Part shown: in pieces, positions 441-36,796 of the stretch
How the letters are laid out: each line of letters opens with the position of its first letter
Numbering within the stretch: position 1 is the stretch's first letter
Assembly (NCBI GenBank): GCA_015231175.1
Contig: JADGBZ010000032.1
Coordinates: 1-37,631 of the forward strand
Reading direction: 5' to 3'
From: Magnetococcales bacterium
Lineage (GTDB): Bacteria; Pseudomonadota; Magnetococcia; Magnetococcales; DC0425bin3
DNA: 37,631 bases
The notes under the pieces: generated by a model
Database searches by the model: none
The model's input: only the letters and a program-made list of their open reading frames with translations
Told to the model about the DNA's origin: nothing
Program-made: the position numbers and the translations under genes

Positions 441-799
441 CGGCGATCACACAGGGTGAAGACGAAGGAGAGGCCCTCATGCGCGCTCGGGACGCCCTGG
501 AGACTGCGCTGGAGATGTATATCGACACGCGCCAACCCCTGCCGATGCCATCCCCAGCCGCAGGCTGTCAGGTGGTGCGTCCCGGAGCGTTGGTCTGTGC
601 GAAGCTGGCGGTGTACCAGGCCATGCAGGAGACGGGCGTTCGCAAGGTTGAACTTGCTCGCCGTCTGCATTGGCACCTTCCGCAAGTGGATCGTTTGTTG
701 AATCTTCGTCATGCTTCTCGCCTTGATCAGATCGAAATGGCTTTGGAGGCTTTGGGTCGTCAGCTTCAGGTTGAGGTGTCACTCAGGAATGGTGCGTAA
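420..799 (+). pseudogene. HicB-family antitoxin, N-terminally truncated
   Basis: The frame encodes PPAITQGEDEGEALMRARDALETALEMY, the second half of the HicB RNase-H-like fold. A linker and a helix-turn-helix domain follow (ELARRLHWHLPQVDRLLNL, then RLDQIEMALEALGRQLQVEV), typical of long HicB antitoxins, which neutralise HicA mRNA interferases and bind their own promoter. The usual first 25 or so residues, with the start and first strand, are absent. The sequence upstream reads as methyltransferase on the other strand, and the only in-frame ATG (311) would add unrelated residues. No hicA is adjacent. Probably a remnant; the C-terminal DNA-binding part is intact. Confidence 0.65.
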
Positions 800-841
800 A
801 AGGTAGCCATGAACATGGCCCAAATTTGTTGACGCAAGTTA

Positions 842-31203: not shown

Positions 31204-31263
31204 GAAAATATTTCTTAACCTCGTGGGCCGTTCTGTCGATGAGTCAAACAAGCCACGAGTGCG

Positions 31264-31343
31264 GGCTGACTCGGTAAAAATGATCAGCCTACCTCCGCCA
31301 GGGAAGGTATTCGGGTTGTTGACCGAAATAGAGTGCAGGAGGT
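31264..31343 (+). promoter_or_regulatory. Conserved 5' leader with anti-SD segment, first tandem gene
   Basis: A hairpin is formed by GGCTGA (31264-31269) and TCAGCC (31284-31289) around TAAAAATGA. The segment ACCTCC (31291-31296) is an exact complement of the SD bases GGAGGT (31338-31343). A second small stem TTCGG/CCGAA lies between. The same order recurs before the second paralog (32179-32259). I infer possible translational control. Confidence 0.5.
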
Positions 31344-31349
31344 TACGAA

Positions 31350-31928
31350 ATGGAGATTACCCATCTGCAAGGCAATCTGGCTTTGCAAAACAGTCGATTC
31401 GATGTGGGCAACCAAGATGGAGAGCAGGCGACGGTCCGTGCGGACGATGCCGGGCGCTCTGCGTGGAAGGAACCGGCAGCAACCCTTTCCATGCGTGATG
31501 CCGGAAAAGCTGTCTCGGATGCCGCTTCCAAACTGCCGCCTTCATTGAAGGGGGCCGGTGACAGCGCTGGGGGTGTGTCGGTGGATAAAACACTGCCACC
31601 GATTTTGCGGGGTGCTCAAAAAGGTGCCGGGGGCAACGTCGCTCCGGCCAAACCGGTGCAGGATGGGGTGCTGCGCCCCTTGAACGAGAAGGCGACGCCG
31701 GATGCCGGTCAAGCGCCTGCCGCCAACGATCAGTTGGACCTTCAGGCCAAATCCGAGCCGGTGATGCGGGCCATCAAGGAGAAAGTCAACAATCTTTTCA
31801 AGGTCTATCCGAACGGTGGTTCCGAGCGGCACGCCGAAAAGGTTCCTTCGCACGCCAAGTCGGCTCCAAAGGTCGTGCCGGGCCTTATGTCGCAGAAGAA
31901 GACTGTTTCGGTGGATATGTATGCCTGA
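31350..31928 (+). CDS. Hypothetical protein, tandem paralog 1
   Basis: The 192-aa product begins MEITHLQGNLALQNSRFDVG and has no signal or membrane segment. Most of it is low-complexity and Ala/Gly/Pro/Lys-rich, likely disordered. Conserved with paralog 2 are the KPVQDGVLRP block, the helix EPVMRAIKEKVNNLFKVYPNGG (about residues 136-157) and the terminus KKTVSVDMYA. The ribosome site AGGAGG lies eight bases upstream. A terminator follows. Function unknown; the disordered body with an MEIT start and a VSVxxYA end is unlike any enzyme. Confidence 0.65.
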   Translation: MEITHLQGNLALQNSRFDVGNQDGEQATVRADDAGRSAWKEPAATLSMRDAGKAVSDAASKLPPSLKGAGDSAGGVSVDKTLPPILRGAQKGAGGNVAPAKPVQDGVLRPLNEKATPDAGQAPAANDQLDLQAKSEPVMRAIKEKVNNLFKVYPNGGSERHAEKVPSHAKSAPKVVPGLMSQKKTVSVDMYA

Positions 31929-31981
31929 CCAGTCTTGAAATGCCCTGGTCTCTGCGGAGATGGGGAGTGTGCAAGGTTGAG

Positions 31982-32014
31982 GGCCGGGACTCTTGGGGTT
32001 TCGGCCTTTTTTTT
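31982..32014 (+). terminator. Rho-independent terminator, tandem gene 1
   Basis: GGCCG (31982-31986) pairs with CGGCC (32002-32006), with further G-U supported pairing inside, followed by eight T at 32007-32014. Confidence 0.65.
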
Positions 32015-32037
32015 GGTCCATGGACCATGGTGGATCT

Positions 32038-32074
32038 CTGGCTACCGATGCGTCGCCGGGTGGTGATTGGTTGC
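32038..32074 (+). repeat. MITE right-end fragment
   Basis: Reads CGATGCGTCGCCGGGTGGTG then ATTGGTTG, the last 30 or so bases of the MITE family. Its position upstream of tandem gene 2 mirrors the fragment upstream of tandem gene 1, supporting duplication of a unit that already contained it. Confidence 0.55.
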
Positions 32075-32178
32075 AAAATGTGTGGATGAGCGCAGTTGCA
32101 AAAAATCGGCGGGATTTTGAGGATTGTTGTCAACTTGTGACGCAACCAGGCCGATAAGAGTCTCAAGACACGGGTATG

Positions 32179-32259
32179 GGCTGGCTCTGTAAAAATGAAC
32201 AGCCTACCTCCAGCCAGGGATGGGAATTCGGGATGATACCCGATTCAGAAGCAGGGGGT
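32179..32259 (+). promoter_or_regulatory. Conserved 5' leader with anti-SD segment, second tandem gene
   Basis: A hairpin GGCTG (32179-32183) / CAGCC (32200-32204) again surrounds a TAAAAATGA loop. ACCTCC (32206-32211) can pair with GGGGGT (32254-32259), the SD, with one G-U pair. The stem TCGGG/CCCGA lies between. The architecture matches the leader at 31264-31343 although SD and stem bases differ. Confidence 0.5.
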
Positions 32260-32266
32260 TATTGTT

Positions 32267-32851
32267 ATGGAAATCACCAGCATGCAAGTCGGTGCCACTT
32301 TTCGGATGGAGCAAAGTGCGCAGCCTCAGGAGACGGTTGGTAAGGAAGCGGACCAGAATGGGGTTGCGGTGCGTCCGGATCGTCAGGGTTCTTCCTATCC
32401 GGTGCAAAAGGATACGGTTGACTTCTCCAAGGTAGATGCCTTGCCGCTGGATAAGGGGCAGGGCGTTCGGGATAGCCAAGCGCTGCCTCCGCCTCCGCTG
32501 CGGAAGGGGACCGAGGAGCAGGCAGATGTTGCCCAGAAGGGTGTTGCCTCCGCGTCCAAGCCGGTTCGGGATGGCATTCTGCGGCCCTGGGATGACGCCT
32601 CGGCTGGCCAGATCCAGATTCCAGGGGTTGCTACCGACAAGGGAAACAAGGGACAGGTTGACGTTCAAACCAAGGCGGAGCCTGTGGTCAAGGCGATCAA
32701 GGAGAAGGTCGAGAATCTCTTCAAAATCTACCCCAACGGCGGGCAAAATCGCGAGGAGAAGGTCGATGTTCCGGCTGCCAGGTCGTTACGTGGAGGCGCA
32801 ACGCCGGCACTGGCCCAGAAGCAGGCCGTTTCTGTAAATCTGTATGCCTGA
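32267..32851 (+). CDS. Hypothetical protein, tandem paralog 2
   Basis: The 194-aa product begins MEITSMQVGATFRMEQSAQP, shares KPVRDGILRPWDDA and EPVVKAIKEKVENLFKIYPNGG (about residues 138-159), and ends KQAVSVNLYA. The middle is charged and Pro-rich with little conservation, so it is probably disordered. No signal or membrane segment. The start ATG 32267 follows AGGGGGTTATTGTT. A strong terminator follows. Divergence from paralog 1 outside the conserved blocks indicates an old duplication kept under selection at the C-terminus. Confidence 0.65.
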   Translation: MEITSMQVGATFRMEQSAQPQETVGKEADQNGVAVRPDRQGSSYPVQKDTVDFSKVDALPLDKGQGVRDSQALPPPPLRKGTEEQADVAQKGVASASKPVRDGILRPWDDASAGQIQIPGVATDKGNKGQVDVQTKAEPVVKAIKEKVENLFKIYPNGGQNREEKVDVPAARSLRGGATPALAQKQAVSVNLYA

Positions 32852-33507: not shown

Positions 33508-34056
33508 TCACCACCAGCATTTTGGGTAGCGTCGGTTGGCCGGAATATTGTTCACCAGAAGGGCGACCAAGAGCATCAGCAGAGCTCCCAATCCTGCCGG
33601 GATCATGGCATAGAAATAACCTTGGGCGTGGATGTGTTCGGAGCCGATGACGGCAATCAGGGCTGTGGCGCCACCGGGGGGGTGCAGGGTGCGGGTCATC
33701 TGCATGGCCACGATGGCCAAAGAGACCGCCAGGGCTCCGGCCAGCCAAGGTTCCGCACCGAAAAGCCGGAACACGGTGACGCCTATCACAGCGGAAATGA
33801 CGTGACCGCCCAGCAGATTGCGGGGTTGGGCCAGGGGCGAATCGATGGCACCATGGATCAGGACGGCGGACGCCCCAAAAGAGCCGATGATCAGGACCAG
33901 ATCCTGAGGGGCCATCACGCTTTGATGGAGATGGCCAACCAGAGCGATACCCAAAAAAGAACCAAGCCAGGACCAAAACATTTCCCGGGGTGGGACGGGG
34001 CCGACCTTGATGCCAGAGCCGAGCATTTTATAAAAATAACCGCGGACGAATCCCAC
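33508..34056 (-). CDS. HPP-family integral membrane protein
   Basis: The 182-aa protein has four to five hydrophobic helices (FWSWLGSFLGIALVGHL, DLVLIIGSFGASAVLIHG, ISAVIGVTVFRLFG, ALAVSLAIVAMQMT, AMIPAGLGALLMLLVALLVN). It carries the HPPGGATALIAV motif that names the family. Some HPP proteins transport nitrite; the role here is unknown. The start is GTG 34056 with AGGAGG seven bases upstream; the open frame continues to 34089 without a better site. Confidence 0.88.
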   Translation of the reverse strand: MGFVRGYFYKMLGSGIKVGPVPPREMFWSWLGSFLGIALVGHLHQSVMAPQDLVLIIGSFGASAVLIHGAIDSPLAQPRNLLGGHVISAVIGVTVFRLFGAEPWLAGALAVSLAIVAMQMTRTLHPPGGATALIAVIGSEHIHAQGYFYAMIPAGLGALLMLLVALLVNNIPANRRYPKCWW

Positions 34057-34156
34057 ACCTCGACCTCCTGGCTGACCGACCGGATCCAAGACCCACTCAC
34101 GAAGGGTGTCAGAATGAGACCATGGCGCCGGCGCAGCAAGGTGTGATGATCATCGA

Positions 34157-35113: not shown

Positions 35114-36796
35114 ATGTTGACCCAAGCCAGTCGCAAATACCAACCCGCTCCACCCATCCCCATGGCCATACGGCAATGGCCAGCCAACATCATCACGCAA
35201 GCCCCCCGCTGGTGCAGCATTGACCTGCGGGATGGAAACCAGGCCCTGGCTACGCCCATGCGTCCGGCCCACAAGGCCAGCATGTATCATATGCTGATCA
35301 AGATGGGATTTCGGGAGATCGAGGCTGGATTTCCAGCCGCTTCCCAGGATGATTTCGATTTTATCCGCCATCTGGTCGACGTGGCCACCGATGCCGAGGC
35401 GATCCAGGTGCTCACCTCGGCCCGGAGTGAGCACATCCAACGCACCTTTGCCGCCTTGCAGGGCATGCCGCGTGCGGTGGTCCATTTTTACATCTCGACT
35501 TCCCCACAACAGCGGCGATTGGTGTTTGGGGTGGATGAAGCGACCCTGATCCAACGCGCCATTGCTGCTGCCGATATCATCCGCTCCCTGGCTGAACGGC
35601 AACCTGACACCCAATGGAGCTTTGAATTTACCCCGGAGAGCTTCACTGCCACTGAACCGGAGTTTGCGTTGGCTATTTGTGAGGCTGTCATCAAGGTTTG
35701 GGAACCCACACCGGAACATAAGGTCATCCTCAACCTCCCGGCCACGGTCGAGGTTGCCTCACCTAACCGCTATGCCGACCAGATTGAATGGTTTGGCAAT
35801 CACATCTCCCGACGGGATGCCGTGGTGCTCTCCATCCACCCCCACAATGACCGAGGATGTGCCGTGGCAGCCGCCGAACTTGCCTTGTTGGCAGGAGCGG
35901 AACGGGTCGAGGGATCCCTGTTCGGCAACGGTGAACGCACCGGCAATCTGGATCTGGTTACCCTGGCCATGAATCTGCACAGTCAGGGAATCGCCACCGG
36001 GCTGGATTTTTCCAACATGCCGGAGATCGCAGCATGTTATCAGGCCTGCACCCGGCAGGAGGTCACCCCCCGGCACCCCTATGTCGGCGAGTTGGTTTTT
36101 ACAGCCTTCTCCGGCTCCCACCAAGACGCCATCCGCAAGGGACTGGCTGCCTATCGACCGGAAAATATTTGGGATGTGCCTTATCTCCCCGTCGATCCCC
36201 GGGATCTGGGATTCGATCTCTCCAGAATCGTTCGGGTCAACAGCCAGTCCGGCAAGGCAGGTGCGGCATTTTTACTGGAACAGGCCATGGGTATCATCCT
36301 GCCCCGCTGGTTGGAACCGGAGTTTGCCAGTGAGGTACAACGGGCCACCGACCAGAGTGGCCAAGAGTTGACGGGGCCGGAAGTTGCGGAACTCTTCGCG
36401 CAAACCCTGTTGCACCCCGTCGACGATGTGGTGTTGAACAGTTACCGCTTGTCACGGCATGGTTGGTGTCAAATCCACCTGCAACTGACCGTACACGGTG
36501 TTGCCAAAGAGATTCAGGGGGAGGGCAATGGTCCGATCGATGCAGCCTGCCATGCCTTGCCTGGTCCTTGGCAGGTGCAACGCTATGAAGAACATGCCCT
36601 GGATACAGGCAGTCACGCCCGTGCCATCTCCTTCATGGCCCTGAAAAGCGATGTCGGCCCCTGTACTGTTTGGTCTGGAGCCGGCATCCACGAGGATATC
36701 GTGGCCGCATCCCTCAACGCCCTGGTAGTGGCCATCAACCGATCTCTTACCGCCCAGGATCTAACGACCCGGGAGGCCATCCTGGCCCGATGGTGA
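35114..36796 (+). CDS. leuA: 2-isopropylmalate synthase
   Basis: The 560-aa enzyme condenses acetyl-CoA with 2-oxoisovalerate, the first committed step of leucine synthesis. The HMGL-like TIM barrel shows APRWCSIDLRDGNQALATPM (catalytic Arg and metal-binding Asp), the metal-binding VLSIHPHNDRGCAVAAAELA, and AERVEGSLFGNGERTGN. The C-terminal LeuA dimer domain (about residues 430-560: GWCQIHLQLTVHGVAKEIQGEG ... LVVAINRSL) is the leucine feedback site. The N-terminus and length are of the long type seen in actinobacteria, fungi and some proteobacteria. GGAGAG precedes the ATG. It is preceded by an attenuator. Confidence 0.96.
   Translation: MLTQASRKYQPAPPIPMAIRQWPANIITQAPRWCSIDLRDGNQALATPMRPAHKASMYHMLIKMGFREIEAGFPAASQDDFDFIRHLVDVATDAEAIQVLTSARSEHIQRTFAALQGMPRAVVHFYISTSPQQRRLVFGVDEATLIQRAIAAADIIRSLAERQPDTQWSFEFTPESFTATEPEFALAICEAVIKVWEPTPEHKVILNLPATVEVASPNRYADQIEWFGNHISRRDAVVLSIHPHNDRGCAVAAAELALLAGAERVEGSLFGNGERTGNLDLVTLAMNLHSQGIATGLDFSNMPEIAACYQACTRQEVTPRHPYVGELVFTAFSGSHQDAIRKGLAAYRPENIWDVPYLPVDPRDLGFDLSRIVRVNSQSGKAGAAFLLEQAMGIILPRWLEPEFASEVQRATDQSGQELTGPEVAELFAQTLLHPVDDVVLNSYRLSRHGWCQIHLQLTVHGVAKEIQGEGNGPIDAACHALPGPWQVQRYEEHALDTGSHARAISFMALKSDVGPCTVWSGAGIHEDIVAASLNALVVAINRSLTAQDLTTREAILARW

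Follow-up and report, generated by a model that had tools for sequence, protein, structure and literature searches.

The question raised by this locus is what kind of RNA element precedes two tandem genes whose leaders can hide their own Shine-Dalgarno sequences (SDs). The genes lie in the window, that is, the whole stretch of DNA analysed here, which comprises 37,631 nucleotides of the Magnetococcales bacterium assembly GCA_015231175.1 (contig JADGBZ010000032.1). They had been taken in a first-pass annotation for paralogs, and their proteins indeed match at 44% over the C-terminal part. In both leaders, that annotation had recorded GGCTG/CAGCC hairpins followed by ACCTCC, a small stem and the SD, all of which are in place; ACCTCC pairs exactly with GGAGGT in gene 1 and, using one G-U, with GGGGGT in gene 2, just as described. 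The GGCTG/CAGCC stem had been misread as a hairpin: it forms half of a predicted H-type pseudoknot, in which CGAGT pairs with ACTCG within the loop of that stem. The earlier observation is a fragment of a larger element, and the pseudoknot, a GGA hexaloop in the small stem and the occurrence of the same leader before flagellin genes across the order had been overlooked. The features of the two copies, in window coordinates, are as follows.

31215-31242, + strand: sigma-28-like promoter of gene 1, read from the sequence (TTAA at 31215-31218, 16 nt, GTCGATGA at 31235-31242)
31256-31260, + strand: pseudoknot stem 1, 5' arm CGAGT, gene 1; pairs with 31269-31273; covaries in 116 leaders
31263-31268, + strand: pseudoknot stem 2, 5' arm GGGCTG, gene 1; pairs with 31285-31290, several of the pairs being changed on both sides
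31269-31273, + strand: pseudoknot stem 1, 3' arm ACTCG, gene 1, inside the stem 2 loop; covariation
31274-31284, + strand: A-rich loop 3, gene 1, GTAAAAATGAT; bases conserved across leaders
31285-31290, + strand: pseudoknot stem 2, 3' arm CAGCCT, gene 1; covariation
31291-31296, + strand: anti-SD ACCTCC, gene 1; pairs with 31338-31343, as judged by anti-SD/SD association, and is so folded in isolation
31297-31308, + strand: putative CsrA-type hairpin GCC-AGGGAA-GGT, gene 1; ANGGAN loop, covarying stem
31310-31327, + strand: variable hairpin TTCGG...CCGAA, gene 1; predicted fold
31338-31343, + strand: SD GGAGGT, gene 1; contains the second GGA
31350-31928, + strand: gene 1, 192 aa, without a Pfam or NCBIfam match; conserved C-terminus AIKEKVNNLFKVYPNGG...SVDMYA
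32130-32157, + strand: sigma-28-like promoter of gene 2, read from the sequence (TCAA at 32130-32133, 16 nt, GCCGATAA at 32150-32157)
32172-32175, + strand: pseudoknot stem 1, 5' arm GGGT, gene 2; pairs with GCTC at 32184-32187 using two G-U
32178-32183, + strand: pseudoknot stem 2, 5' arm GGGCTG, gene 2; pairs with 32200-32205
32184-32187, + strand: pseudoknot stem 1, 3' arm GCTC, gene 2; pairs with 32172-32175
32188-32199, + strand: A-rich loop 3, gene 2, TGTAAAAATGAA
32200-32205, + strand: pseudoknot stem 2, 3' arm CAGCCT, gene 2; pairs with 32178-32183
32206-32211, + strand: anti-SD ACCTCC, gene 2; pairs with 32254-32259 using one G-U
32214-32223, + strand: putative CsrA-type hairpin CC-AGGGAT-GG, gene 2; ANGGAN loop
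32228-32243, + strand: variable hairpin TCGGG...CCCGA, gene 2; predicted fold, ACGGG...CCCGT in L016
32254-32259, + strand: SD GGGGGT, gene 2; contains no GGA
32267-32851, + strand: gene 2, 194 aa, paralog of gene 1

The ACCTCC/SD helix is present in the minimum-energy folds of both leaders when each leader is folded alone. Because the folding energies are unremarkable and lie near those of shuffled sequences (z of -2.0 for gene 1 and -1.1 for gene 2; -0.9 and -0.7, respectively, for the ACCTCC-to-SD part alone), these two sequences by themselves would not prove the case; the comparison over 116 leaders does.

A covariance model (R1) built from ten leaders gave matches at E<=1 in 44 of the 48 genomes of the class; a genome usually has several copies, spaced approximately 1-1.3 kb apart, and most of the copies are located 45-70 nt 5' of flagellin genes, mostly tandem ones. 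A second model (R2), built from 120 matches, detected the leader at E<=0.01 in 45 of the 48 Magnetococcales genomes, compared with one of the 350 genomes taken from elsewhere in the phylum; this sole match outside the order (G109, E of 0.008) is probably due to chance. In 11 genomes, a flagellin N-domain lies within 160 nt of 51 of the 69 strong matches, and the remaining strong matches precede gene 1, gene 2 or their homologs, lie at contig ends, or are copies followed by short ORFs only. Conversely, a leader was detected at 55 of the 138 flagellin-N-domain matches in the 11 genomes, a total that includes FlgL-type proteins. The flagellin gene numbers of magnetotactic cocci are among the highest known, with 15 in MC-1 and 14 in MO-1 (PMC7175107), and a common structured leader with a putative CsrA site in almost every genome would mean shared control for many flagellins.

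The statistics described below were computed over 111-116 distinct leaders, which are related to one another; the gathering model rewards stem 2 (S2) and the conserved bases, and stem 1 (S1) and the hexaloop stem lay outside the model. Swapping stem arms within single genomes lessens the bias arising from kinship and collection, without removing it. The S1 crossing pair is CGAGT/ACTCG in gene 1, CGAGC/GCTCG in L010 and GGGT/ACCC in L016, and S1 therefore covaries. In the ten leaders, as counted on a padded alignment, 99% of the cells of the crossing structure are paired and four pairs are changed on both sides; in 500 shuffles, neither the pairing score nor the covariation score was ever as high as observed, and pairing fell to 54% when the partners were slid by one column. 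Stem 2 reads GGCTG/CAGCC, GGTTG/CAACC or GATCG/CGATC depending on the genome. In the larger set, 110 of 116 leaders form an S1 of 4 bp or more, made up of GC, CG, AU, UA and GU pairs, and the S1 pairing weight of 13.95 compares with 10.94 +- 0.23 when arms were swapped between all leaders and with 11.93 +- 0.29 when they were swapped within genomes, the observed value being reached in 0 of 1000 shuffles. The same holds for S2 (0/1000), which counts for less since S2 was in the model. In loop 3, numbered relative to stem 2, A at -6 and G at -3 occur in 116 of 116 leaders and A at -2 in 115 of 116, although the model-based collection of leaders favours these invariant bases. The pseudoknot is hard to discern in the diverged leaders of G013, a complete genome. 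The covariance-model search of homologous leaders that the first-pass annotation had suggested has revealed covariation in S1, S2 and the hexaloop stem, and on this comparative evidence the GGCTG/CAGCC stem is part of a predicted H-type pseudoknot with crossing, covarying stems. The pseudoknot may serve as a scaffold, as a guard of the 5'-end or as the site of a second factor.

A GGAGG or GGGGG type of SD is found in all 77 leaders that have CCTCC after stem 2, versus 10 of the 34 leaders without it. When the SD types were permuted within genomes, the observed agreement between anti-SD and SD was matched in 0 of 5000 permutations, and a finer pairing weight was reached once in 1000. The anti-SD is missing from about 30% of the leaders. 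The proposed masking of the SD by ACCTCC is thus backed by co-variation across leaders in addition to the pairing potential, which together support the view that the SD can be masked in this manner.

The most constant part of the element is located immediately downstream. An ANGGAN hexaloop occurs at the expected place after the anti-SD in 110 of 111 leaders (6.3 in shuffles), including those of gene 1 and gene 2, and none of 1000 within-genome arm-swap shuffles equalled the covariation of its stem. The diverged leaders of G013 keep the hexaloop with altered stems (CTCC-ATGGAA-GGAG and GCACC-AGGGAC-GGTGC). This hexaloop is an established high-affinity target of CsrA/RsmE (PMC7652899), and by analogy the small hairpin is a predicted CsrA site. 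A GGA lies within 20 nt upstream of the start codon in 106 leaders, that of gene 1 included. It is absent from gene 2 and three other leaders, all four of which have GGGGG-type SDs and keep CCTCC; bridging between two GGA sites would therefore not be universal. Many leaders also have an extra hairpin, NNCC-AGGA(A/T)-GGNN, 5' of the pseudoknot, which is likely an additional CsrA site; examples are found 5' of the leaders in L106 and L117, upstream of 756-806 (-) in L109 and in L130 (G013), with sequences such as GGCAACC-AGGAA-GGTTGCC and TGATCC-AGGAT-GGATCA.

In the Magnetococcales, a CsrA gene is present in 46 of 48 genomes and a FliW gene in 45 of 48, and the genome that contains the window has both. 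Its CsrA retains the core that binds RNA in CsrA chains of solved structure and is extended at the C-terminus, and its fliW lies directly before a flagellin gene. CsrA acts as a repressor of flagellin translation in Campylobacter and Bacillus, and FliW removes it (PMC4894983, PMC7652899); the logic of a hexaloop combined with a GGA at the SD is well documented for glgC, Campylobacter flaA and Bacillus hag (PMC7652899, PMC4894983). We consider it probable that both leaders belong to a Magnetococcales flagellin-leader RNA class that acts as a translational switch under CsrA/FliW control, for which we infer CsrA binding, repression and relief by FliW. From 5' to 3', a member of the class would consist of an H-type pseudoknot with a conserved A-rich loop 3, an anti-SD (usually CACCTCC), a short hairpin with an ANGGAN hexaloop, a variable hairpin and an SD that usually contains a second GGA. 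Blocking of the SD by CsrA on the hexaloop is proposed because the hexaloop is a known CsrA target and the CsrA and FliW genes occur in nearly all genomes of the order. CsrA free of FliW would bind the hexaloop and, once bound, would either bridge to the GGA of the SD or stabilise the anti-SD/SD helix around the hexaloop; in both cases the SD would be blocked and the 30S subunit could not bind. Flagellin export would then free FliW, which would sequester CsrA and allow translation to resume. Judging from the sequences, the leader most likely controls the timing of flagellar protein translation, and gene 1 and gene 2, which have sigma-28-like promoters and do not encode flagellins, would thereby be timed with the filament.

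The first-pass annotation had favoured a cis-acting RNA switch or thermometer; a conserved cis-acting RNA is borne out, whereas nothing points to a thermometer. A purely intrinsic device, in which the ACCTCC mask over the SD melts on warming and no protein takes part, would draw on an anti-SD/SD pairing that is real, that co-varies and whose helix is predicted in isolation, and ROSE and fourU thermometers likewise have an anti-SD segment able to mask the SD. It would leave the invariant ANGGAN loop and the covarying pseudoknot unexplained, however, and it is at odds with the loss of the anti-SD in 30% of leaders and with folding energies close to those of shuffles; moreover, the leader has neither UUUU nor a ROSE anti-SD, matches no thermometer family in Rfam and has extra conserved elements. 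Such a device is very improbable, and control of masking by a protein is likelier than temperature sensing, given that the hexaloop is invariant and that almost all the genomes encode CsrA and FliW. Even less credit can be given to the idea that the leader was merely copied along with duplicated flagellin genes and is now functionless. Many copies do stand in tandem arrays, some followed by short, poorly conserved ORFs, but S1, S2 and the hexaloop stem covary between paralogs within one genome, and the leader is kept before unrelated genes, namely gene 1, gene 2 and their homologs in other genomes; this explanation is already contradicted.

An explanation centred on the pseudoknot is that it constitutes a metabolite-sensing aptamer, that is, a small riboswitch, whose state would determine if ACCTCC and the SD are paired, with only a secondary part for the GGA hexaloop. 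The pseudoknot is a compact H-type fold immediately 5' of the anti-SD, and its loop bases are invariant in 116 of 116 leaders. Compact H-type pseudoknots of this sort are the folds of the preQ1-I and SAM-II classes, in which two short crossing stems and an A-rich third loop precede the SD, as in the Magnetococcales leader. The leader differs from both classes in lacking an Rfam sequence match and in its gene context: the genes served are mostly flagellins rather than those of a metabolic pathway. In addition, no riboswitch in Rfam matches, and it is the hexaloop that varies least, persisting in leaders whose pseudoknot has diverged. A riboswitch of this kind is unlikely. Somewhat more plausible, though still speculative, is a reading in which the pseudoknot, with its invariant A...GA loop, would be bound by a second regulator dedicated to it, whether a small-molecule ligand or a so far undescribed RNA-binding protein of the flagellar system, acting jointly with CsrA. 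If this were true, the flagellins of the Magnetococcales would be under a leader RNA with two inputs, of a kind not yet described, and the array-heading copies that lack a flagellin gene may serve as decoys.

To return to the CsrA/FliW-controlled switch, its novelty was assessed against described systems. No family of riboswitches, thermometers or leaders in Rfam matched the leaders at either gathering or relaxed thresholds, in agreement with the first-pass statement that no described family matches, and a description of a structured flagellin leader in the Magnetococcales was not found in the literature searched, which covers the field in part. The closest likeness is to CsrA-FliW homeostasis at Campylobacter flaA, whose leader consists of 45 nt with two hairpins, and Bacillus hag, where the ANGGA hairpin loop, a GGA at the SD (as in most Magnetococcales leaders) and the csrA and fliW genes recur (PMC4894983, PMC6529632, PMC7652899). 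Beyond what these leaders contain, the one of the Magnetococcales has a conserved pseudoknot at its 5' end and an anti-SD segment distinct from the other parts; it recurs in front of numerous flagellin paralogs and is found before a non-flagellin family as well. The E. coli glgC leader similarly has a high-affinity GGA hairpin 5' of a GGA that overlaps the SD, whereas a conserved pseudoknot and an anti-SD are absent from its description (PMC7652899). The Pseudomonas psl leader combines an anti-SD/SD helix with an RsmA/CsrA site (PMC7652899); it belongs to another gene and is described without a pseudoknot, whereas in the Magnetococcales the anti-SD/SD helix surrounds a CsrA-type hairpin. The leader looks as though it works in the manner of a CsrA/FliW-type flagellin leader, enlarged by the repeated anti-SD and by the pseudoknot, which is new to the CsrA-FliW theme.

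Gene 1 and gene 2 (ATG at 31350 and 32267, respectively, as read from the sequence) are not flagellins according to Pfam and NCBIfam searches, yet they carry the flagellin-type leader, which ties this uncharacterised family to the flagellar programme. Both genes are situated outside a flagellar locus and away from the flagellin loci of their own genome (C72 and C85). Profile searches of both proteins against Pfam, NCBIfam and PDB returned no match, and the AlphaFold model of the gene 2 protein is of low confidence (pLDDT 52), with one C-terminal helix. A protein scan of named genome contigs confirmed no relatives; a search of related genomes with the gene 1 protein found homologs within the genus, within the family and in other families of the order, which have in common only the C-terminal stretch AIKEKVENLF.VYPNGG...VSVD.YA. 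The leaders of these homologs share CACGGGT..GG.TGGCCCTGTAAAACGAACA.CC.ACCTCC, and a DNA pattern scan of the named genome contigs gave 21 exact matches, of which the motif proved real on reading in four Magnetococcales contigs; at the others it was absent on reading, and these are chance matches. Downstream of 31350-32851, the window encodes an HPP-family membrane protein (33508-34089) and an alpha-isopropylmalate synthase (35114-36796).

The promoters of gene 1 and gene 2 share the layout TNAA-N16-NYCGATRA, and in the nearest relatives a sigma-28-like box (GCCGATAA or close to it) likewise lies directly 5' of the leader. CCGATA-like boxes occur 5' of 32 of the 116 leaders, compared with 8.6 in shuffles. 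With promoter boxes judged by consensus alone, gene 1 and gene 2 look sigma-28-driven. Shorter homologs in L022, L023 and L024 (G027, G030 and G023) have the sigma-28-like box and no pseudoknot leader.

Several of the top-scoring leader copies, some of them heading flagellin arrays, are followed only by a poorly conserved ORF of 31-60 codons (L094:1809, L098:1957, L106:1627, L107:1695-1744 (-), L090:1331, L111:2606-2658 (-), L118:6012-6064 (-), L099:1689 and L114:1875), and the next leader, if any, lies some hundred nt onward. These copies might be CsrA decoy RNAs or relics of lost flagellin genes. Other short ORFs behind a leader begin with residues like those of flagellin N-termini (MFLFISNDSSSL, MFFLIHNGASVL), at L083:620, L084:1053 and 1947, L095:2543 (-), L082:3027 (-) and L109:2164 (-), and are probably decayed flagellin genes that retain an intact leader.
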